Below are positions 1,753 through 64,000 of a stretch of 64,000 nucleotides of DNA, one piece after another. The stretch lies in IMG/VR virus record IMGVR_UViG_3300026488_000001, positions 24,756 through 88,755 of that record. One strand, given 5' to 3'. The notes beneath the pieces are model-generated. The model did not search any database. It was not told where the DNA came from and saw nothing but the letters and a program-made list of their open reading frames with translations. Each line of letters starts with the position of its first letter. The first letter of the stretch is position 1. The stretch is from a virus. A program made the translations under genes and the position numbers.

Positions 1753-2769
1753 ATGAAATTAAAGTATATAAAGAAAATAGCAAAAAGAGAGATTTATAAT
1801 TATTCTCCTGTAAAAGGGTTTGTAGAGTTATGGGATTTTTCTTTATCTAATCTTAATCAAGAATCAAGAGAAGAAGCTGTATCAGTAGTAGCATCAATCA
1901 GCTATGGTAATGAAATGGCTAAAAATCCTAAAAAACTTTGGAACTTTCTTATTAAGAGAGGACACAAAAGTCCATTTGAATTTATTAGATTTCCTGAAGA
2001 TGATTTAAATGGATTTGAAGATTATAGTATAAGTGAGAGTTTGAGGAATAGTGATTTTATTACATATGAAGAATTTTTGAAAGGTAATTCTTTGATAAGT
2101 TTAGATGATTTAGTCAAAATACATAAACAAACGATAGCTGTTTTTAAAATTAAAGTTCCTCTTTTTGTAAGAAGTCAATACCATCGCCATAGATGTTGTT
2201 CATATTTAGAACTTTCTCGTAGGTATGTAAAGCCTGATAAAGTAGAATTTGAGTTTTGGGGTATAATGGACTTACCTTCTCAATTGAACTATGAGATAGA
2301 TGTTTTAATAGAAAAAGCTGAAAAGGTATATAAAGGATTGGTTAAATTAGGATATAAACCAGAAGTAGCTCGTTCTGTATTACCTCAATCTCTTTATACT
2401 ATATTTTGGGTAATGAAAGATTACAAATGTGCAAGGAATTTTTATGTAGAAAGATACTCAAAACAAGCTCAAGAACAAATAAGAGAAGTAGCTAAAGCAA
2501 AACTTGAACTTTTATATAAATATCAACCTGAATTTTTAGGTCAATATGTTGAAGTTGTAGGAGATGATAAGTTAGGTTTATATGATAAAGGAGGATTTAC
2601 TATTAAAATTTTAGATATTCAAGATAAATATAAGCAAATGCAAAGTAATGGTTGGAATAAAGATGCTAAGTATGTTTATGTAGAGTATGGAGATAAAGAT
2701 TATTATGCAAGATTTAATTTGGAAGTAGGGTTGTTTGATGAGAAAATTCTTAAAGAGGAGGTAAAGTAA
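1753..2769 (+). CDS. thyX: Flavin-dependent thymidylate synthase ThyX
   Basis: ThyX converts dUMP to dTMP using FAD, NADPH and methylene-tetrahydrofolate, supplying thymidylate for phage replication. The family signature RHRxxSxxExSxRY is complete at about residues 145-158 (RHRCCSYLELSRRY), and a conserved HKSPFE-type segment lies near residue 71. At 338 residues it is longer than the usual 220-250; the last 80 or so residues look like an extension. CTGGAGGT precedes the ATG. The stop codon TAA overlaps the apparent ACG start of the next gene (TAACG). It belongs with the nrdA, nrdB and dNMP kinase genes that follow. Confidence 0.96.
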   Translation: MKLKYIKKIAKREIYNYSPVKGFVELWDFSLSNLNQESREEAVSVVASISYGNEMAKNPKKLWNFLIKRGHKSPFEFIRFPEDDLNGFEDYSISESLRNSDFITYEEFLKGNSLISLDDLVKIHKQTIAVFKIKVPLFVRSQYHRHRCCSYLELSRRYVKPDKVEFEFWGIMDLPSQLNYEIDVLIEKAEKVYKGLVKLGYKPEVARSVLPQSLYTIFWVMKDYKCARNFYVERYSKQAQEQIREVAKAKLELLYKYQPEFLGQYVEVVGDDKLGLYDKGGFTIKILDIQDKYKQMQSNGWNKDAKYVYVEYGDKDYYARFNLEVGLFDEKILKEEVK

Positions 2770-3200
2770 CGGAACTTACACAATTTTTAACAGGAGAAAT
2801 ACAAGATATACAAATTTCTTTTGAAGAAAGATTTGAAAAATTTAAAGCATCTATTCTCTTTGAAAATGGAGATTTGGAGTTAGTTTTGACACCTTCTGAT
2901 TTTATTATTTTTATGGATAGAATTATGACTATTTCTGATTATGTAGAACTTATATCTCATTTAGAAGATGATGTTTTGAATTTTTATCGTATATATGGGA
3001 CAATAAAATCAGCAATTGATTATTTAGTTTCTCCTACTGAAGTAAGAACGAGAATAGTTAATGATAGATTAGTGAGGGTTTTAGGAAAATTAATTCAAGT
3101 TTTTGTTTCTAATAGATTTGGCGAACATTCTTCCATTATATGGGATTTAATTAGGAAAGGAGATATAGTTATTTTTAGAATTGAACCTATCGAAGTTTAA
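2769..3200 (+). CDS. Hypothetical protein, 143 aa, apparent ACG start
   Basis: Family not recognised. The reading frame is open well upstream of the first TTG (2874), back to the thyX stop. GGAGG at 2757-2761 is followed seven bases later by ACG at 2769, directly overlapping the thyX TAA as TAACG, where phages usually have TAATG. The upstream 35 residues (starting ELTQFLTGEIQD) look like real coding sequence. I therefore place the start at the ACG; if that is not used, the fallback is TTG at 2874 without a good ribosome binding site. The protein is mostly helical, with no recognisable motif. Confidence 0.6.
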   Translation, partial: TELTQFLTGEIQDIQISFEERFEKFKASILFENGDLELVLTPSDFIIFMDRIMTISDYVELISHLEDDVLNFYRIYGTIKSAIDYLVSPTEVRTRIVNDRLVRVLGKLIQVFVSNRFGEHSSIIWDLIRKGDIVIFRIEPIEV

Positions 3201-8158: not shown

Positions 8159-8836
8159 ATGAGAGTAGTTCAGATAGCAGGGAGGAAAAGTTCTGGAAAA
8201 ACTTTTCTTTCTGATTTACTCTTTCATTCTTTTTCAAAAGAAGGTTATAGGATTTATAAGATTAGCTTTGCTTCTAAGTTAAAGTTTACACTTAGAAAGT
8301 TGGGTGTATCCAAATCAGGAATAGTAAAAAATTTATCTTTTGAGGATTTTTATTCAAGCTTACAAGATATATTTTTTACTTACTTTCCAAAGTATATAAG
8401 AAGTCGTTTAATAACTCAGACGATTAAATATTTTTATGAGTTAAGAGATGCTTATAACATTTTCTTTATTCAGAAAGATTTTGAGAATGGATTTAGGAAA
8501 TTAGCACAGTTGATAGGAACTGAAATAGTAAGGGAGATAGATGAAGACTTTTGGGTTAAAGAAGTAGTTAGAAGTATAAAACAAGTAGAAAAATGTGTTG
8601 ATTTTGTTTTGATAGATGACTGGCGTTTTCCTAATGAAGATTTAACTAAATATTTTCCTGAACGGAAAGTATTTAGGATTTTACTTGTAACAAAAGATGA
8701 ACAAAAAGATAATCACATTTCTGAAAACCTTGTTAATCAGTTAAGAGTGGATTTAAAAGTAGAAAGGTATGGGGATAAATATAATCCGGATTTTGAAAAG
8801 ATAATTAGGAGGGTTCGAGGTGAGGAATATACTTAG
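8159..8836 (+). CDS. Deoxynucleoside monophosphate kinase (T4 gp1-like)
   Basis: Likely phosphorylates dNMPs to dNDPs, feeding the dNTP pool with ThyX and RNR. A P-loop GRKSSGKT occupies residues 8-15. The family's LAQLIGTEIVRE...FW segment is near residue 118 and IDDWRFPNE near residue 154, as in T4 gp1-type kinases. The length of 225 residues is typical. AGGGGG is five bases before the ATG. The 3' end overlaps the GTG start of the cytosine methyltransferase. Confidence 0.88.
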   Translation: MRVVQIAGRKSSGKTFLSDLLFHSFSKEGYRIYKISFASKLKFTLRKLGVSKSGIVKNLSFEDFYSSLQDIFFTYFPKYIRSRLITQTIKYFYELRDAYNIFFIQKDFENGFRKLAQLIGTEIVREIDEDFWVKEVVRSIKQVEKCVDFVLIDDWRFPNEDLTKYFPERKVFRILLVTKDEQKDNHISENLVNQLRVDLKVERYGDKYNPDFEKIIRRVRGEEYT

Positions 8837-10670
8837 TCTTTTTGACGGTATTTCTTGTGGTAGGTTAGCATTGGATAGAGCTGGAATTAAATATGAAAAA
8901 TATTATGCAAGTGAAATTGATAAATATGCAATAGCGGTAACTAGGTATAATTATCCTGATACAATATTTGTCGGAGACATTAGGAATCTAAAAGGAGAAG
9001 ATTTTAAAGATATAGATTTAATAATGGGAGGAAGTCCTTGTTTTGCTGAAGGAACAAAAGTTTTGACAAAAGAAGGATATAAAAATATTGAAGATATTAA
9101 ACTAAATGATTATGTCTTAACACATAATAAAAGATTTTGTAGAGTACTAGATATAGGTTATAGATATGCTGAGACTTATATTGTAAAAGCTCAAGGAATT
9201 TTATCTATTGAAACAACTTTTAATCACCCATTTTTAGTTAGAGAAATAAGTTGGAAATGGAATAGCAAAAAAAGAACTAAAGAAAGAGTTTGGTCAGAAC
9301 CAAAATGGAAAAATGCGGAGAAGTTAACAAAAAATGATTTTATAGGAATTCCTATAATTGAAATTGAAGAACTAGCATTGTCACTACAGTTAGCAGTAAC
9401 TAAAGTTTATAAAGTTAATAGTTCTATTTATTTCTATAAAAGACCTAATAAGTATATTATTGAAGGAAGAATTGTAAATCAAAATGATACTTATTTTGTT
9501 GAATTTAGAACAGGCAATAGAAAACAGCGAAGAGCAGTAGTTATAGATGGAATAGTTTGGGTTCCTGTAAAAGAAGTAATAAAAACAGGACTATTTAAGA
9601 AAGTTTATAATTTAGAAGTAGAAAACGATAATACATATACAGCTAATAATGTTATTGTTCACAATTGTCAAAATTTTAGTTTTTCTGGTAAAAAGCAAGG
9701 AATGATAACAAAAGAGAAAATAGAAGTAACTACGCTTGAACAATATTTGGAATTAAAGGAACAAGGGTTTGAATTTGAAGGACAATCTTATCTCTTTTGG
9801 GAATTTGTAAGATTATTAAAAGAAATTAAACCTAAATGGTTTTTACTTGAAAATGTTAGAATGGCCAAAAAGTGGAGGGATGTTATTACAAATGCTTTAG
9901 AAGTAGAACCTATTGAAATTAATTCTGCTTTAGTTTCAGCTCAAAATAGAAGAAGGTTATATTGGACTAATATCCCTGTTAAGGGATTACCAAAAGATAA
10001 AGGTATTTTGTTGAAAGATATATTAGAGGATGAAGTTGATGAAAAATATTATCTTGATAAAGGGATAGAAATTTTAAATAAACAGAAAGGAGGTCTTTGT
10101 AAAGAGATTGGTAAACTTGAAATTAAAGGTTTTGATTGTATAAGAAGAGTTTATAGTCCAGAAGGAAAGTCTCCAACATTGATTGCAATGCAAGGAGGTT
10201 ATAGGCAACCTAAAATAATTGAAGAAAAGTATTACCTATCAGAGAAACATTTTAAAGCATTTTTAAAAAGTTATAAAAACTTTAGTTTAGATGATAGAAA
10301 CAGTAAATCTAAACCGTTACTCGCAACTTATTATAAACAACCACCTCATTGCCCTTATATTTTAGATAAGGACAAATCTCTTTGTATGGATGCTTGTTAT
10401 TACAAAGGTGGGAACTTAAAACAATATTTTGAGAAACATAGAAGACAACTTGTTTTTAAAGTTAATGAAGAAAATAAGGTTAGAGTTAGAAGACTTACTC
10501 CTCTTGAATGTGAAAGACTACAAACTCTTCCGGATAATTATACTCAATATGGTTTATTTGATGACGGAAAGATAAGAAAGATTTCAGACACGCAAAGGTA
10601 TAAAATGATAGGGAATGGTTGGACTGTTGATGTAATAGCTTGGATTTTCTCATTTATAAATGATGAATGA
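8820..10670 (+). CDS. DNA cytosine-5 methyltransferase interrupted by a mini-intein
   Basis: The exteins form a complete m5C methyltransferase: SAM motif I (LSLFDGISCGRLAL, residues 5-18), motif IV PCQ, the ENV motif (LLENVRMAK), the QNRRR motif, and a C-terminal GNGWTVDVIAW. Residues 74-282 are an intein inserted directly before the catalytic cysteine, so GGSP plus CQNFSF are rejoined by splicing. Translation begins at GTG 8820 preceded by TTAGGAGGG; the GTG overlaps the dNMP kinase gene. Without splicing the enzyme cannot be active. The 407-residue spliced product is a normal length. No cognate restriction enzyme is evident. Confidence 0.93.
   Translation: MRNILSLFDGISCGRLALDRAGIKYEKYYASEIDKYAIAVTRYNYPDTIFVGDIRNLKGEDFKDIDLIMGGSPCFAEGTKVLTKEGYKNIEDIKLNDYVLTHNKRFCRVLDIGYRYAETYIVKAQGILSIETTFNHPFLVREISWKWNSKKRTKERVWSEPKWKNAEKLTKNDFIGIPIIEIEELALSLQLAVTKVYKVNSSIYFYKRPNKYIIEGRIVNQNDTYFVEFRTGNRKQRRAVVIDGIVWVPVKEVIKTGLFKKVYNLEVENDNTYTANNVIVHNCQNFSFSGKKQGMITKEKIEVTTLEQYLELKEQGFEFEGQSYLFWEFVRLLKEIKPKWFLLENVRMAKKWRDVITNALEVEPIEINSALVSAQNRRRLYWTNIPVKGLPKDKGILLKDILEDEVDEKYYLDKGIEILNKQKGGLCKEIGKLEIKGFDCIRRVYSPEGKSPTLIAMQGGYRQPKIIEEKYYLSEKHFKAFLKSYKNFSLDDRNSKSKPLLATYYKQPPHCPYILDKDKSLCMDACYYKGGNLKQYFEKHRRQLVFKVNEENKVRVRRLTPLECERLQTLPDNYTQYGLFDDGKIRKISDTQRYKMIGNGWTVDVIAWIFSFINDE
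9039..9665 (+). other. Mini-intein (209 aa) at the methyltransferase catalytic site
   Basis: The intein starts with Cys74 (CFAEGTKVLT, block A), has a block B TTFNHPF near residue 132, and ends with block F VYNLEVENDNTYTANN and block G VIVHN. The residue after the terminal Asn is Cys283, which is both the +1 splicing nucleophile and the methyltransferase catalytic cysteine. There is no LAGLIDADG or HNH motif; a 60-residue insert of unknown role sits between the splicing halves. Lacking its own endonuclease it may depend on another homing enzyme or be fixed. Confidence 0.92.
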
Positions 10671-12161: not shown

Positions 12162-12566
12162 ATGCTAAACCAACTAATCAATAAACTAAAAACCTTACCT
12201 CCTAAAGAGAAGTCTATATTAAAGAGATTAATTGAAAAGTTCCAAAATGACCCCCAATCCTTACTCCAATTGTATGCTGAACTTGAAGGTTATAAAGAAG
12301 TACCAGTAGATATAATAACATTTATAGAACACCCTAAATATTTAGGCCTTTCTTTAGGGGGTAAGATATACCCAGTATGGAAAGAAGCTCTAAAAACAAT
12401 TTTCCCTAACCCATTCTACTCTCCTTATTATGAGTGCATCTACACTGGAGCAATAGGGGTTGGGAAATGTCTTGGAAATCAACAACTTATAGAAGTTTAT
12501 ATGAATGAAGAAGATATAAAGAAATATGGATTAGAAGAGTTCATAATAGAGGAAAGCAATGAGTAA
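12162..12566 (+). CDS. Terminase large subunit, N-terminal part fused to split-intein N fragment
   Basis: Residues 1-102 are the N-extein of TerL, ending in the Walker A core YTGAIGVGK. Residue Cys103 begins the intein N fragment (CLGNQQLIEVYM...), only 32 residues before the stop. Such a short N fragment matches atypically split inteins known from other terminases (for example AceL-TerL). The missing Walker A threonine is supplied by the C-terminal gene at 13490 after trans-splicing, restoring GAIGVGKT. The stop overlaps the homing endonuclease start by eight bases. Alone, this polypeptide cannot be an ATPase. Confidence 0.9.
   Translation: MLNQLINKLKTLPPKEKSILKRLIEKFQNDPQSLLQLYAELEGYKEVPVDIITFIEHPKYLGLSLGGKIYPVWKEALKTIFPNPFYSPYYECIYTGAIGVGKCLGNQQLIEVYMNEEDIKKYGLEEFIIEESNE
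12468..12563 (+). other. Split intein N fragment (32 aa)
   Basis: Begins with the nucleophilic Cys103 directly after Walker A lysine, and has a beta-hairpin-like block A (QQLIEVYM) plus an acidic tail. It lacks block B, which is found in the C fragment, so the split lies unusually close to the N-terminus. Confidence 0.85.
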
Positions 12567-13533
12567 TCCCAAGATAGTAATAACAGAGTTTAGAAAACCT
12601 ATTATCTTCATTCATACTCTAGATGAGCTTCTTTTCCATCTAAAAGAAAAGACTAAACATTTTACCCACCCTGTTGTTCGTCTTACTCCTGAGATAATTG
12701 AATGGTTTAACTCACTTCAAGAACCTTTTTATGTTCCAAAAGGTAAATATGCTAAATTCCATACAGTAATATGGAAAGAGGTTTATGGTAAAGAGGAGTG
12801 GTTTAGCTCTCAAATAATAAGAGCAAATTTAAATCCATATTACTACTACATTAGGGGTTATACAGAAGATGAGGCTAAGGTTTTAATGGAGGAAATGCGT
12901 AAAAAGAATAGTGAAGGTGTTTCCAAAGCTTTCTCTTCTATGACTCCAGAAGAAAGAAAAGCTAAATTTGGTGTGTTTTCTGATGAATATCTGAAAAAGA
13001 AGTATGGTAAAGAAGAAGGTTATAAGAAGTGGAAAGAAAGGAATGAAAAGTGGGCTAAGACAATGTCCCAAAAAGAGAATGTTATCCCTTATGGTAGGAA
13101 TGATGAGTATATAGGATTTTCTAAAATATCACAACAACTGTTTGATAAGGTTGTTCAAAGGTTAGCTGAGTACTTCCCTATGGGAGTAATGGGAATTCAA
13201 TATGCTACTTTTAAAGAGGGTAAGAAAGTTCAGGCAAAACATTTTATGGAAAATGAGAAAAGATTTGGTACTAAGTTTGTAGACTTTTATGATGAAATAT
13301 CTAATGTTGTAATAGAGTTTGATGGTGCAGAATTCCACGATGATCCTGAAAGAGATTTAAAAAGATTGGAAGTAATTTATAATGCATCAAAAGCTTTTAT
13401 TCTTCGTATTCCAGAGGATTTACCAAGACGAGTAGGATTTGACAAACTTGCTAGAGTGATAGCAGACTACTTAATAAAAGTGAGAAACTATGGCTTTAAA
13501 GAAACTGAGAATTCCAATAGGGTTACTGTTTAA
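12559..13533 (+). CDS. Free-standing homing endonuclease, VSR-like EDxHD family
   Basis: 324 residues. The C-terminal domain has VIEFDGAEFHDD: Glu253, Asp255, His260 and Asp262 form the EDxHD signature of the VSR-like homing endonucleases described in split-intein 'fractured genes'. The segment around residues 137-166 (FSDEYLKKKYGKEEGYKKW) is a repeated basic helical DNA-recognition type region. The gene lies between the two terminase halves, overlapping the first by 8 bases and the second by 44. It presumably cuts uninterrupted terminase genes of related phages near the Walker A codons, spreading the insertion. Confidence 0.88.
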   Translation: MSNPKIVITEFRKPIIFIHTLDELLFHLKEKTKHFTHPVVRLTPEIIEWFNSLQEPFYVPKGKYAKFHTVIWKEVYGKEEWFSSQIIRANLNPYYYYIRGYTEDEAKVLMEEMRKKNSEGVSKAFSSMTPEERKAKFGVFSDEYLKKKYGKEEGYKKWKERNEKWAKTMSQKENVIPYGRNDEYIGFSKISQQLFDKVVQRLAEYFPMGVMGIQYATFKEGKKVQAKHFMENEKRFGTKFVDFYDEISNVVIEFDGAEFHDDPERDLKRLEVIYNASKAFILRIPEDLPRRVGFDKLARVIADYLIKVRNYGFKETENSNRVTV

Positions 13534-13891
13534 AAAGTTAGGAATAGAACATAACCCTGATAAGGAAGAGCAAGTTCATAACCCTCCTTGCGATGTTTAT
13601 ATTTCTACTCCAGAAAACAACTTGGCTAAAGTAAATTTCTTTGTAACTAAAGAAACTGAAGTATGTGAATATGAATTAGAGAACGGTTCTACTCTTATAA
13701 CCTCAACTAAACATATAGTACTAGAGAATGGAAAAGAAACTTTCATAGATAAAGCTGAGTCAGTAGATAATGTAGATGGTAAGTCTTATAAGATATGTAC
13801 TAAGAGGTATAGAGGCAAAGAGGTAGCTTATGACTTAAGTATAGACTATCCTCACCTTTACATTACTCCTGATGGGTCTATTCATCATAAT
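13490..13891 (+). other. Split intein C fragment (up to 134 aa)
   Basis: Contains a block B-like STLITSTKH, block F (VAYDLSIDYPHLYIT) and the terminal HHN. The +1 extein residue is Thr. The roughly 32 residues before CDVYISTPE are basic and may be a linker or may not be translated. Confidence 0.85.
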
Positions 13892-15448
13892 ACTACGATA
13901 GCAAGAATTGTTTTGCTATATGATCTTTATAAACTTCTCTTATTAAGAGATCCTCACAAAAAATTTAACCTAATACCTACTGATAGAATAGTTATAGCTC
14001 TCTTCAACGCTACATTAGGACTAGCTGATCAGGTTTTATATGAACCATTTAAAAACCTAATAGCCAATTCAGAATTTTTCCAAGAACACTTAGATGCTGA
14101 AAATAAGAAAACATCAGAGATTAGGTTTGTTAACAACATAGGTATAGTAGCAGGTTCAAGATTTACTCATACCCTTGGTATGGCTGTATTTGGAGGTTTA
14201 TTAGACGAAGCTAATTTTGATGTAATATCTAATCAAGCTCAGGAAAGTTATAATGCACTTCTTAGAAGAATGGAATCAAGGTTTGCTCAGGCTGGTGGCA
14301 AACTTCCTGGACATCTTTGCCTTGTTTCTTCTGAAAAGAGTCCTACCGATTTTGTTTCTCAACACAGAGAAAAAGTAAGAGGAAAACAAGGAGTAATAAT
14401 CTTTCAATATCCTATATGGGAAGTTAAAAAACATTTAGGTATCTACTCAGGTAAAACCTTCAAAGTATTTATAGGAGATGAAACTACTGATCCATTCATA
14501 ATAGAAGATGAATCTCAACTACAATATATAGATGAAACCAAAGTAATAGATGTTCCAATAGAGTTAAAAGATAAATTTGAACTAGACTTACATAATGCTA
14601 TAAGAGACTTAGCTGGTTATTCAGTAGGTTCAACTCATAGAATTTTTAAATCTAAAAACATACTCATAAAACAAGCATCCGTTATTAACCCTGTTAACCA
14701 ACAGATAATAAGACTTTCCTTTAATGACAAATCAGATGTCTTAATTAACTACTTCAACATAAACTACCTAAAGAACCCACTCTTTAAAGAATGTCCAAGA
14801 GTTATCCATATAGACCTTTCTATAACAGGAGACAGAACAGGTATAGCTTCAGGTTACATAAAAGGTTACAAAACAATAGAAAGAGTTGATCCACTAACCT
14901 TAGAAAAACATATTTTCTCTGAACCAGAAGTAGTTATTGATTTTGTAACCTATATAGAACCTTTACCAGGAGAGAGAATTCCATTTTACAAGATAAGACA
15001 ATTCATAGTAGATTTATCAAGAATAGGTTACCCAGTAGCAATGGTAACTACTGACGGATTCCAATCTGAAGATATGAGACAACAGTTAACTCAAATGGGT
15101 TATAAAACTGCTTTACTATCAGTAGATAGAACTAAAGACCCTTACCTTTCCTTTAGAGATGCTATATATGAAGAAAGAGTTTGGATACCTAAACACGACT
15201 TACTGATTAAAGAACTATTACATGTAGAAGATATAGGTAAGAAGATAGACCATCCTCAAGAGTTTCCTGATGGTACTAAAGGTAGTAAGGATGGTGCTGA
15301 TGCAGTAGTAGGAGTTTACTGGAACTTGGTAACTAATAAAGATTTAATTAAACAATTAGCTTTCCAAAGAATTCATAAAACAGAAGTCAAAGAAGAAGAA
15401 CAAAGGCAAAGTGTAGCAAATCTTTTTTGGAAAGATCAAATAGATTAG
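13490..15448 (+). CDS. Terminase large subunit, split-intein C fragment plus C-terminal part
   Basis: Residues up to 134 are the intein C fragment, ending in the block G sequence SIHHN; the C-extein starts at Thr135 (TTIARIV). The ATPase Walker B is GGLLDEAN (Asp239-Glu240). The RNase H-like nuclease acidic residues are Asp442 (HIDLSITGD), Asp522 (TTDGF) and Asp601/Asp604 (SKDGADA). So motor and nuclease centres are intact once Walker A is completed by the gene at 12162. The start at 13490 lies inside the endonuclease gene with a weak ribosome binding site, so the first 30 residues are uncertain. Its stop lies inside repeat A1. Confidence 0.92.
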   Translation: MALKKLRIPIGLLFKKLGIEHNPDKEEQVHNPPCDVYISTPENNLAKVNFFVTKETEVCEYELENGSTLITSTKHIVLENGKETFIDKAESVDNVDGKSYKICTKRYRGKEVAYDLSIDYPHLYITPDGSIHHNTTIARIVLLYDLYKLLLLRDPHKKFNLIPTDRIVIALFNATLGLADQVLYEPFKNLIANSEFFQEHLDAENKKTSEIRFVNNIGIVAGSRFTHTLGMAVFGGLLDEANFDVISNQAQESYNALLRRMESRFAQAGGKLPGHLCLVSSEKSPTDFVSQHREKVRGKQGVIIFQYPIWEVKKHLGIYSGKTFKVFIGDETTDPFIIEDESQLQYIDETKVIDVPIELKDKFELDLHNAIRDLAGYSVGSTHRIFKSKNILIKQASVINPVNQQIIRLSFNDKSDVLINYFNINYLKNPLFKECPRVIHIDLSITGDRTGIASGYIKGYKTIERVDPLTLEKHIFSEPEVVIDFVTYIEPLPGERIPFYKIRQFIVDLSRIGYPVAMVTTDGFQSEDMRQQLTQMGYKTALLSVDRTKDPYLSFRDAIYEERVWIPKHDLLIKELLHVEDIGKKIDHPQEFPDGTKGSKDGADAVVGVYWNLVTNKDLIKQLAFQRIHKTEVKEEEQRQSVANLFWKDQID

Positions 15449-30175: not shown

Positions 30176-31789
30176 ATGTCTGCTCCTTTTGTTAATGTAG
30201 TAGAATGGGATTTGTCTCAAAGAGTTCCAGGTTTTCCTGGTGTTTATGGTGCAATGGTAATACCTGCTAAAAGAGGTGTAGTTGGAAAACCTGTTCTTAT
30301 GACTTCTCAAACTCAATACCTTAAAACTTATACTTGGAAAGAAACAGTAGAAGTTGGAGATACAACAGCTCACTTTAGTGCTTTATCTTACCTTGAAGCG
30401 TCTAATAAACTTTGGGTAATAAGAGTAGCAAACCAAGCTAAATATGGTGGTGCTTTAATTTCTACTGGCCAAGATTTAGATGGTTCTGGTTCTCCAGAAA
30501 CTACAACTGCTCTAACTTCTGGAGTTGAAGATCCTTTTGCATTCACTTTTCCTTCTAATGACTATGCTTTTGCTATATTTGGAGCTAATCCAGGAGAATG
30601 GAATAATAAAGTAGGGATTAAGATTTTTAACTATTCTACTTATCCTGATAAGGTTAAAGTTCCTAATGCTTTTCTTATAGAAGTATATGAGGAAGGAGAT
30701 GAAGTTAATCCGGTAGAAACTTTTGTATGTTCAAGAGACCCTAATGCTAAAGACGGTTATGGAAGAAATATTTATATTGAAGAAGCTCTTAAATCTTCCA
30801 ACTACATTCAAGCAGTAGATAACCTTGCAGTAGATAAGTCAATTAATCCTGAAGATGTTACTACCATACTTTGGCTTGGTGGTGGAGATGATGGACTTGC
30901 TGTAACTGATGCTGATATAGTTACAGCTCTTCAAACTCTCAAAAATCCTGATGACATACCTGTAACACTTCTTATGGATGCAGGTTGGGCAACTCCTGCT
31001 GTCCAACTCGAAATGCTCAAAATAGCAGAAGAAAGACAAGATTGTGTAGCTATTCTTTCTACACCTTATAGTGCTGAAGATTCAGCTAATTACCTTAATG
31101 AAATAGTAAATTATAGAAAGACCACTCTCAATGCTAATTCTTCTTATGGTGCTATTTATACTTCTCATGTTAAAATACTTGATAGATTTAACAATAGAGA
31201 AATTTACATTGATCCTACTGGATTTGTAGGTGGAATTATCTCTAAAACCGCTATGCAATTTGAAATTTGGTATCCACCTGCTGGTTGGAGAAGAGGAATT
31301 CTTAATGTTCTTGATGTAAGAAGAAGGTTTAGCAGAGGAGAAATGGATTATCTTTATGACAATGGAATTAACCCAATTAGGTTTAGACCTGGATATGGTA
31401 TAGCTGTATGGGGTCAAAAGACTCTTCAAACTCTTCCATCTGCACTTGATAGGCTTAATGTCAGACTTCTTCTTATTGTTATTGAACCTGCTATTAAGAA
31501 AGCACTTGAATCTTTTGTATTTGAATTTAACGATGAAACTACAAGACTTCTTGTTAAATCTATGCTTGAGTCTTACTTGCAAAACATTAAGGCAAGAAGA
31601 GGTATTTACGACTTTATGGTTAAGTGTGATGAGGAGAATAACACCCCTGAAGATATAGATAACTATAGGTTAAATGTTTGGGTATTTATTCAACCAACCA
31701 AGTCTGCTGAATTTATCAAAGTTCCTATTATCATAACAAGGACTGGAGCTAATTTTGGTCAAATAGCTTCTACTCTTCTAGGAGGTTAA
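30176..31789 (+). CDS. Tail sheath protein (T4 gp18-like)
   Basis: 537 residues. The N-terminus has the sheath-type VPGFPGVYGAMVIPA, a variable middle domain follows, and the conserved C-terminal domain is clear: RRRFSRGEMDYLYDNGIN, WGQKTL, LDRLNVRLLL and a final beta-strand (VPIIITRTGANFGQ) used for subunit linkage. It contracts to drive the tube into the host. TAGGAGGTAAAAATA precedes the ATG. It is followed by a terminator. Confidence 0.94.
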   Translation: MSAPFVNVVEWDLSQRVPGFPGVYGAMVIPAKRGVVGKPVLMTSQTQYLKTYTWKETVEVGDTTAHFSALSYLEASNKLWVIRVANQAKYGGALISTGQDLDGSGSPETTTALTSGVEDPFAFTFPSNDYAFAIFGANPGEWNNKVGIKIFNYSTYPDKVKVPNAFLIEVYEEGDEVNPVETFVCSRDPNAKDGYGRNIYIEEALKSSNYIQAVDNLAVDKSINPEDVTTILWLGGGDDGLAVTDADIVTALQTLKNPDDIPVTLLMDAGWATPAVQLEMLKIAEERQDCVAILSTPYSAEDSANYLNEIVNYRKTTLNANSSYGAIYTSHVKILDRFNNREIYIDPTGFVGGIISKTAMQFEIWYPPAGWRRGILNVLDVRRRFSRGEMDYLYDNGINPIRFRPGYGIAVWGQKTLQTLPSALDRLNVRLLLIVIEPAIKKALESFVFEFNDETTRLLVKSMLESYLQNIKARRGIYDFMVKCDEENNTPEDIDNYRLNVWVFIQPTKSAEFIKVPIIITRTGANFGQIASTLLGG

Positions 31790-58587: not shown

Positions 58588-58929
58588 TTAATTATATCTG
58601 TTTGCCATATTCTTTGCGAAGGTAAATGCCTTACTAATTCCTGTCTTTCCTCTAAAGAGAAAAACCTTTTTCATAGAAGGGTCATAATACAGAGCATAAT
58701 ATGGTGAAGCAACAACAAGAATAGGAAGAATTTCCCCACCCCAAATTGACCGTCTTCCATACTCATACACTTTTATGTGAGTATTAGGAGGTTGCAAAAT
58801 CGGATACTGTGTATCAGATTCATAATCATAAAAGAAGGATATCTTTTCTCTAGTTCTAGGAGTTACTACTTCTACTGGGTTCCAATCTTTCTTTTTAGAA
58901 AGGTACCAATTATTTACTCTTTCTTTCAT
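58588..58929 (-). CDS. Hypothetical protein, 113 aa
   Basis: Start at 58929 because AGGAGGTGTGAAG is directly upstream; an earlier in-frame ATG (58986) has none. Beta-rich with a basic C-terminus (AFTFAKNMANRYN). No family recognised. Confidence 0.65.
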   Translation of the reverse strand: MKERVNNWYLSKKKDWNPVEVVTPRTREKISFFYDYESDTQYPILQPPNTHIKVYEYGRRSIWGGEILPILVVASPYYALYYDPSMKKVFLFRGKTGISKAFTFAKNMANRYN

Positions 58930-58995
58930 CTTCACACCTCCTAATCCGTTTTCTCTAAATATAGCCAGATTAGGAGGAAATGTCAACCCTTTTTC

Positions 58996-59190
58996 TTAAA
59001 ATCTACCTTGTTTTTCCTCTATTTCGCTTGATCCAACTGAAGGGTATATTTCAGCTAGTTCAAGTGGAATAATTTCTCTGAAATACAAATTCAATATTTT
59101 CCCACTCTTCTTAAAGTTGAAAAAGAATTGGATAAAGACACCTGTTATGCCAAGTTCAGCTTTTCTGATTACTGTTACCTTTCCAGCCGT
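58996..59190 (-). CDS. Small protein, 64 aa, apparent ACG start
   Basis: Between neighbouring leftward genes lies an open frame without an ATG, GTG or TTG at the right place. AGGAGG on the minus strand is followed six bases later by ACG (59188-59190), then an open frame beginning AGKVTVIRKAELGITGVFI. A stop codon lies just before the ribosome binding site in this frame, so ACG is the only well-placed start. Protein is beta-like with an acidic end. See the similar case at 2769. Confidence 0.55.
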   Translation of the reverse strand, partial: TAGKVTVIRKAELGITGVFIQFFFNFKKSGKILNLYFREIIPLELAEIYPSVGSSEIEEKQGRF

Positions 59191-59237
59191 CCTACGCCTC
59201 CTAATTTATATAAGTTGTTTGGGGAATTTTACTTACT

Positions 59238-59495
59238 TTAAAGCACTCTAAGTTCCTTAACAAAGTTATTAAGAACTTCCCTTTCTTCCCAAGTTAGGGA
59301 AGTTAAACACTCTCCTTTCTTCCTAGTATAGAGAACCTCAGACCAATCTTTACCTACCATAGCTAACACTTCCCAACTAACTCTGTCAGAAGCCTTGACT
59401 TCAAACAAAACTTCAGAATATTCCTTACCTTCTTGGATTTCCTTAACGATAGCATTAAACTTTCTTAGTATCCCCTCCAACCTTGTCTTACCCAT
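59238..59495 (-). CDS. Hypothetical protein, 85 aa
   Basis: Small, mostly alpha/beta protein (GILRKFNAIVKEIQEGKEYS...). AGAAGGAGGGTACT precedes the ATG. It precedes the ACG-start gene in the leftward operon. Function unknown. Confidence 0.65.
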   Translation of the reverse strand: MGKTRLEGILRKFNAIVKEIQEGKEYSEVLFEVKASDRVSWEVLAMVGKDWSEVLYTRKKGECLTSLTWEEREVLNNFVKELRVL

Positions 59496-59611: not shown

Positions 59612-60238
59612 TTAATTTCTATTCCTATCAATTTCTATTCCTATCCATCTCCTATTTAACTTTTCACAAGCTACTCCAACCGTCCCAGCTCCAAAATAAG
59701 GGTCTAATACAATATCCTGATTACTGAAAGTCAACTTAGAAATAAAGAACTCCGCCCATTGTTCGCTTTGTTGCCATTTATGGTATTCTTTTTTAATGCC
59801 ATCAGGTTTTGTAATTTTCAACATATCTTTTATAAAACCTCTACCATTAGGATAGGCTCTTTTTACATACCATAAAACAGGTTTCCACACAACTTCTATT
59901 CCCATAGCCATTCTTGAATGCTTACCATCCTCCTGATTCATACAAAAACACCACCTATATTTCAGCTTTCCATCAAAAATTTTTATAATATCAGGTAAGG
60001 CATAATGACCTACAATCATTAATAATGATGTTCCATCTTTCATTAATTTTGGACAATAATCAGCAAGGTAGTTATAAGTATATTGATACTTCCTAGGGTA
60101 AGGAGGGTCTGTTAATACTAAATCAATACTTTCATCAGGTAACTGTTGTAATATTTCGCTTGCATCTCCACAATAGAGAATCCCATTTTCAGTCTCAAAA
60201 TATCTATTCTCTTGAGGAAATATGTCTTTCCAACTCAT
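59612..60238 (-). CDS. DNA methyltransferase, beta-class, C-terminally shortened by a 16-bp duplication
   Basis: 208 residues. DPPY is at residues 43-46 (VLTDPPYP), and the SAM motif DPYFGAGTVGVA is near 176-187. The first 23 residues match the methyltransferase at 6256, as does the end KLNRRWIGIEI. A 16-bp tandem duplication changes the frame so that the protein ends in DRNRN instead of the expected NEKYCEIAKKRILEILT (original end at 59560). It may still be active, since core motifs are intact. Leader AGGGGTTATGTA is also shared with the other copy. Confidence 0.82.
   Translation of the reverse strand: MSWKDIFPQENRYFETENGILYCGDASEILQQLPDESIDLVLTDPPYPRKYQYTYNYLADYCPKLMKDGTSLLMIVGHYALPDIIKIFDGKLKYRWCFCMNQEDGKHSRMAMGIEVVWKPVLWYVKRAYPNGRGFIKDMLKITKPDGIKKEYHKWQQSEQWAEFFISKLTFSNQDIVLDPYFGAGTVGVACEKLNRRWIGIEIDRNRN
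59614..59645. repeat. Perfect 16-bp tandem duplication at a methyltransferase 3' end
   Basis: AATTTCTATTCCTATC occurs twice in a row (59614-59629 and 59630-59645). Removing one copy restores a reading frame that matches the C-terminus of the related methyltransferase at 6256. Sixteen is not a multiple of three, hence a frameshift. Confidence 0.95.
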
Positions 60239-63158: not shown

Positions 63159-64000
63159 TTATCTAAGAAGTTCTTTCAATATCCTAACTTTATCAGGATA
63201 AAGTTCCTTAATTTCATTTTCCAATAACTCAATAGGAGATTGGAAGCTATCTAACTCATATTCAACTGGAATTTCTTTAATATCTTGTTTCACTAACTTA
63301 ACTTGAATGTCCACTCCATTAGGTAATTTGTCTGGAAGTTGAGAAGTTTCTAAAATGAATCCAGTATTATCCTTATCATACTTATCTATTTCCTCCAACC
63401 TACTAATCTTAACGATTTGCTTACCTACCGGATTTTGGATAAATCTAAACTTTCCATTTTCTTCTATATAAACACCATGCTTAGTCCCTTCTACCCAATT
63501 CAATTGAACTAAACTTCCTACATAGAGAAATTCAGGCGTTTCTTGAGGAATGTGAACATGACCGGAAATAGCCTTAACTCCTCTAGGTAGAGTTAACCCT
63601 TGTATTCTAATCTTACCTACATCAGCTCCATTAAAAGCTAAGTGAGTTATAACTTTCTTAGGTTCCCTTAATAGGATTTCCTCATAAGCTTTAGCTTCAT
63701 CTGTAAAGTAAGGTAAGTATAAAGTATTATCCTCATAAACAGGTTCATAGAAAACTCTATCAAAAAATCCTTCCAACACTCTAATAGAATAGATAGCGTT
63801 GTTATACTTACCATAGTAATCATGATTTCCTGGAATAAGCCAATGTTCAACTCCCAATCGTTTACAAGTTTCTTTTAGCTGAGAAAACGCTAAACCAGAA
63901 GCATCAAGTGTAGGGGATGATTGGATTACCAAATTGTTGAATATATCTCCTAAGCAAAGTAATAAATCAGGTTTTTCAACCTCTACAATCTCTGATAACC
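63159..64000 (-). CDS. SbcD/Mre11-like nuclease subunit (T4 gp47-like), partial
   Basis: The gene runs off the right edge, so its N-terminus is missing. The visible part has CLGDIFNN (motif II, upstream of the first TTG), PGNHDYYG, THLAFNG and SGHVHIP, the metal-binding motifs of Mre11-type exonucleases. The rest is the capping domain. It pairs with the gp46-like ATPase. The reading frame stays open from 63932 to the window end, so this is a continuing gene, not one that starts at TTG 63932. Confidence 0.9.
   Translation of the reverse strand, partial: LSEIVEVEKPDLLLCLGDIFNNLVIQSSPTLDASGLAFSQLKETCKRLGVEHWLIPGNHDYYGKYNNAIYSIRVLEGFFDRVFYEPVYEDNTLYLPYFTDEAKAYEEILLREPKKVITHLAFNGADVGKIRIQGLTLPRGVKAISGHVHIPQETPEFLYVGSLVQLNWVEGTKHGVYIEENGKFRFIQNPVGKQIVKISRLEEIDKYDKDNTGFILETSQLPDKLPNGVDIQVKLVKQDIKEIPVEYELDSFQSPIELLENEIKELYPDKVRILKELLR

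Follow-up and report, generated by a model that had tools for sequence, protein, structure and literature searches.

An apparent ACG start is described for the tape measure protein gene of the Cluster O mycobacteriophages Corndog, Firecracker and YungJamal (PMC4351075). Mass spectrometry of Corndog revealed tape measure peptides that start right after the ACG, while Dylan and Catdawg have an ATG at this place; the authors regarded ACG initiation or ribosome bypassing as possible and saw no obvious reduction of expression (PMC4351075). The phage records were re-read at the tape measure start, which gave CTTACGGCAATACAT for Firecracker, YungJamal and Ashwin, CTGATGGCGATACAT for Suarez and CTGATGCCGATACAT for Dylan. 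In S. aureus, weak start codons behind an extended Shine-Dalgarno (SD) sequence (infC AUA, cvfC1 AUU, ccpN AUA) reach about 10–30% of the AUG output in reporter data (PMC13009471). Their mismatch is at the third base of the codon and they show conservation between species, whereas ACG mismatches the second base. In vitro, IF3 requires Watson-Crick pairing of the first and the second codon base and discriminates more strongly against a mismatch at the second base than at the third (PMC10158994), so that the efficiency of ACG is argued to be low.

The window analysed here, a stretch of 64,000 nucleotides, is part of an IMG/VR virus record of 88,755 bases (G000). The first and the last 77 bases of this record are identical (exact direct terminal repeat, window 63924–64000 = G000:1-77). 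The record therefore probably represents the whole genome, though it is classed as linear. Gene finders take ATG, GTG and TTG alone (rarely near-cognates), and genes with an ACG start therefore drop out of annotation. To our knowledge, no regulatory use of a start with a second-position mismatch is established in bacteria.

The open reading frame (ORF) under study belongs to a leftward gene cluster and lies between a gene of 85 amino acids (59495–59238) and a gene of 113 amino acids (58929–58588), which starts with ATG and is of unknown function according to the ORF list and domain searches. On the minus strand the order is TAA ATT AGGAGG CGTAGG ACG GCT GGA AAG GTA ... AGA TTT TAA, with the final stop at 58998–58996. 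An AGGAGG (59197–59202) is located six nucleotides 5′ of the ACG (59188–59190), a spacing of the same class as in the ATG genes of this phage, and the ACG heads a frame of 64 sense codons (58996–59190 including the stop; translation (x)AGKVTVIRKAELGITGVFIQFFFNFKKSGKILNLYFREIIPLELAEIYPSVGSSEIEEKQGRF). Direct reading thus bears out the arrangement given in an earlier note on this DNA, which had also stated that a stop before the SD leaves no ATG, GTG or TTG. Indeed, an in-frame TAA (59208–59206) stands directly 5′ of the ribosome binding site, so none of the three codons is usable upstream in this frame. In this frame TTG first occurs at codon 33 (59094), where it has no SD and leaves a frame of only 32 amino acids. 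No other near-cognate codon was found at SD spacing when the site was read directly, and a search for structured RNA at the ACG yielded nothing beyond shuffled controls and no match in Rfam.

The locus resembles that of the Corndog tape measure gene in that no ATG, GTG or TTG is available and in the swapped-in neighbour gene. Its AGGAGG is stronger than the SD of the Corndog gene. An ACG where relatives have ATG is shared with Corndog by a second gene of this genome, at 2769, while the focal ORF has no relative with ATG. Unlike the essential 5-kb structural gene of Corndog, for which peptides were observed, both genes considered here are short candidates of unknown function. A strong SD before a near-cognate start and the small size of the proteins are likewise found for infC, cvfC1 and ccpN of S. 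aureus.

In our preferred reading, which we consider moderately probable, the focal ORF represents a small accessory gene that is carried by a swappable cassette and uses its ACG as start by means of the strong SD. The host ribosome with its ordinary initiator tRNA would initiate at the ACG, the strong and well-spaced AGGAGG would make up for the poor codon, and the output would probably be lower than from an ATG. We infer that the frame would be translated, would begin at the ACG and would do so at a low level. The earlier note had offered weak translation of the ACG genes as one explanation, which is plausible and agrees with the S. aureus reporter data and the pairing demands of IF3; nevertheless the Corndog tape measure gene, with ACG as its sole start candidate, shows no obvious loss of expression, and a weak output at ACG is therefore uncertain.

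A second assembly (IMGVR_UViG_3300026484_000422, G002), which is 99% identical, contains the identical focal ORF including the ACG. The ORF is thus not an error of one assembly, and a sequencing error at the ACG was rejected since both assemblies agree. The 85-amino-acid gene (59238–59495, minus strand) is conserved in two related contigs (G001 and G003) and forms the left border of a variable cassette: in both contigs it is followed by one methylase-like and one kinase-like gene in place of the focal ORF. This comparison of gene order indicates that the ORF belongs to a lineage-specific cassette that can be replaced. Several DNA methylase genes of this genome share near-identical DNA at their C-terminal ends (90–98%; 59612–59700 on the minus strand, G000:2836-2932 and 31673–31744), a pattern that points to gene conversion or recombination between the methylase cassettes.

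A much stronger case for an ACG start, judged from the alignments, is the gene at 2769–3200 (plus strand). Its 143 codons begin with ACG, seven nucleotides behind an AGGAGG (2756–2761), and the 143-residue protein is 57% identical to its counterpart in G001 (143 amino acids) and 55% identical to that in G003 (144 amino acids). The sequence GGTGGAGTAATGAGACTGCTAGAA of G001 and G003 aligns to GAGGTAAAGTAACGGAACTTACACAA here, with ATG exactly at the position of the ACG, and a third contig also has ATG at the aligned codon. Alignment of these orthologs indicates an exchange of ATG for ACG, or of ACG for ATG, within this phage group. We compared 452 SD-headed ORFs with all contigs, looking for genes whose ATG aligns to a codon that follows an SD and has any canonical start out of reach; 2769 was the sole place of this kind. 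DNA pattern scans for start variants at 2769 returned nothing, and the same scans for the focal site returned G002 alone. The ACG overlaps the stop of an upstream thyX-like gene (TAACG, replacing the usual TAATG stop-start overlap), and re-initiation by the terminating ribosome may therefore help at 2769. With ATG in the sister phages, ACG here and the same SD layout, 2769 is a clean natural experiment, which would reveal to what extent a strong SD can rescue a start with a second-base mismatch; the focal ORF is a weaker second ACG candidate in the same genome.

The exchange at 2769 would also fit a loss of starts, in which a former ATG of the focal ORF was lost by a T to C change and the frame is open merely through the recency of this event, with nothing useful made. 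We regard this as possible, though rather unlikely. The focal ORF has no canonical start left and is dispensable, as the absence of the cassette from relatives indicates, but its SD and its entire frame are intact. The frame at 2769 has likewise remained intact at about 43% protein divergence, and the same base change would be needed in two genes of one genome in which other decay is absent.

The earlier note had called for a scan of the full genome for frames preceded by a strong SD and ACG. In the 88.7-kb genome, nine AGGAGG sites without a canonical start head a frame of at least 60 codons that has a stop shortly upstream. ACG begins two of these frames, the focal ORF and 2769, and other codons begin the remaining seven. 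These two are the only AGGAGG-linked ACGs in the genome, and that both head frames counts in favour of an ACG start. Six related contigs were surveyed for codons at SD spacing that head frames of 40 or more codons. ATG heads such a frame in 216 of 296 instances, ACG in 5 of 18 and GTG in 7 of 40, while for most other codons the share ranges from a few percent to about 14%, often because an ATG adjoins as neighbouring codon. The five ACGs are those of the focal ORF, of its copy in G002, of 2769, of one frame with ATG as next codon and of one frame of 44 codons. Since attention fell on ACG only in hindsight, the counts are suggestive and not conclusive.

A habitual use of ACG starts by this phage, one of two readings that the earlier note had proposed, is not supported: the complete genome has two SD-linked ACGs but dozens of ATGs behind an SD, the relatives have ATG, and tRNA genes are lacking. 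ARAGORN predicted no tRNA in G000, G001, G002 or G003, and a phage tRNA reading ACG as initiator was ruled out on this basis. What stands of the proposal is the ACG in the place of a start codon at 2769, where the orthologs have ATG and the proteins are collinear; for the focal ORF, which has no homologue, it is plausible only. A related reading, in which the lineage or its host tolerates ACG starts and at least two small genes with strong SDs use them as a deliberate low-output setting, appears clearly unlikely to us.

Outside G002, no homologue of the focal protein turned up among viral contigs, in 84,980 species genomes, among the phages of INPHARED and the plasmids of PLSDB or in three related phages, and no match was found in Pfam or PHROGs. 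Conservation could therefore not serve as evidence for coding, and the strong SD, the openness of the frame and a modest codon bias make up the case. A random frame of 64 codons would be open with p about 0.005 at the local composition. The codon score of 0.08 bits per codon is higher than that of the five other frames here and exceeds that of 94% of out-of-frame open stretches, yet it falls into the lowest 9% of gene segments. This low score for a gene of this phage counts against coding, as does the missing homologue. A mediocre single-sequence AlphaFold model of the ORF suggests three strands and a helix (pLDDT 64.5), and fold searches with it gave no match below E 0.001. An antisense control frame scored higher (pLDDT 78.3); the model thus carries no weight, and structure prediction was rejected as evidence for coding. 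Taken from these features of the sequence, the focal ORF likely codes for a protein.

That the frame is no gene at all, but is open by chance behind a fortuitous AGGAGG within non-coding linker DNA acquired through recombination, we hold to be distinctly improbable. Such a chance origin would agree with the absent homologues, the weak codon score and the seven of nine startless AGGAGG sites that head open frames by chance with other codons. Nevertheless it leaves aside the openness and the best codon score of the six frames as well as the ideal spacing of the SD with an in-frame stop immediately 5′ of it, and in this densely coding phage a gap of 240 bp would be unusual. Initiation elsewhere, with the frame reached by bypassing or frameshifting or from another non-AUG codon, is hardly probable at all: bypassing was kept as a possibility for the tape measure gene of Corndog (PMC4351075), but here the upstream gene has a normal, conserved stop 47 nucleotides before the ACG, and the SD points at the ACG with no other near-cognate codon at its spacing.

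Even if an accessory gene with an ACG start is present, the 3′ end of the focal ORF may be accidental. The last codons (about EKQGRF-stop) lie within a unit of approximately 98 bp (58920–59017, minus strand), which also comprises a promoter, a hairpin and the start of the next gene. The unit is about 94–95% identical to G000:2162-2259 and to a stretch in G001. As it recurs behind a different gene and in G001, a recombination joint is located inside the 3′ end of the ORF, and the last codons would stem from the recombined neighbouring unit. Copies of the promoter and repeat were found at 58986–58937 (minus strand), G000:2227 (minus strand) and G001:67879 (plus strand).

The predicted promoter for the 113-amino-acid gene is of sigma-70 type (TTGACA-17-TATATT, 11/12; 58986–58958, minus strand) and begins ten bases past the focal stop. 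It overlaps an inverted repeat (58937–58977, minus strand), CCTCCTAATCTG in the promoter spacer and CGGATTAGGAGG in the 5′ leader, the latter being the SD of the 113-amino-acid gene. In read-through RNA the repeat is predicted to fold into a hairpin of 12 bp (−20.2 kcal/mol, z −4.4) which buries this SD, while no stable structure is predicted for RNA that starts at the internal promoter (0 kcal/mol). Thus, the transcript of the focal ORF would not express the gene behind it. The second copy in this genome has identical hairpin arms; the copy in G001 carries two substitutions in the 5′ arm, C to U opposite G, and the pairing therefore survives as G-U. The idea that the focal SD pairs over a distance with the 5′ arm of this hairpin was dropped, since the fold favours the local hairpin.

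In phage T4, gene e, soc, 49 and I-TevI have their SDs hidden by hairpins in early transcripts that read through (PMC3014915). As in these genes, the 5′ arm here lies upstream of the start point of the internal promoter, so that according to the fold predictions the SD of the next gene would be hidden in read-through RNA alone, in the manner of T4 gene e. Unlike the T4 late promoter, the promoter here is sigma-70-like, the unit is a mobile repeat with two copies in this genome, and the arrangement is a prediction alone. It is equally conceivable that the inverted repeat acts in the DNA, as an operator that surrounds the −10 box.

Intein-like features were observed elsewhere in the window. The terminase large subunit is apparently split by an intein (12162–12566, 12559–13533, 13490–15448): the N-terminal part ends with GVGKCLGNQQLIEV, a separate endonuclease-like gene follows, and the C-terminal part has HHN before TTIARIV. 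The best viral relatives of the terminase align from residue 135 onward only, past the intein remnant. Furthermore, a cytosine methyltransferase-like gene (8820–10670) contains an intein-like insert (SPCFAEGTKVLT ... VHNCQNFSF).
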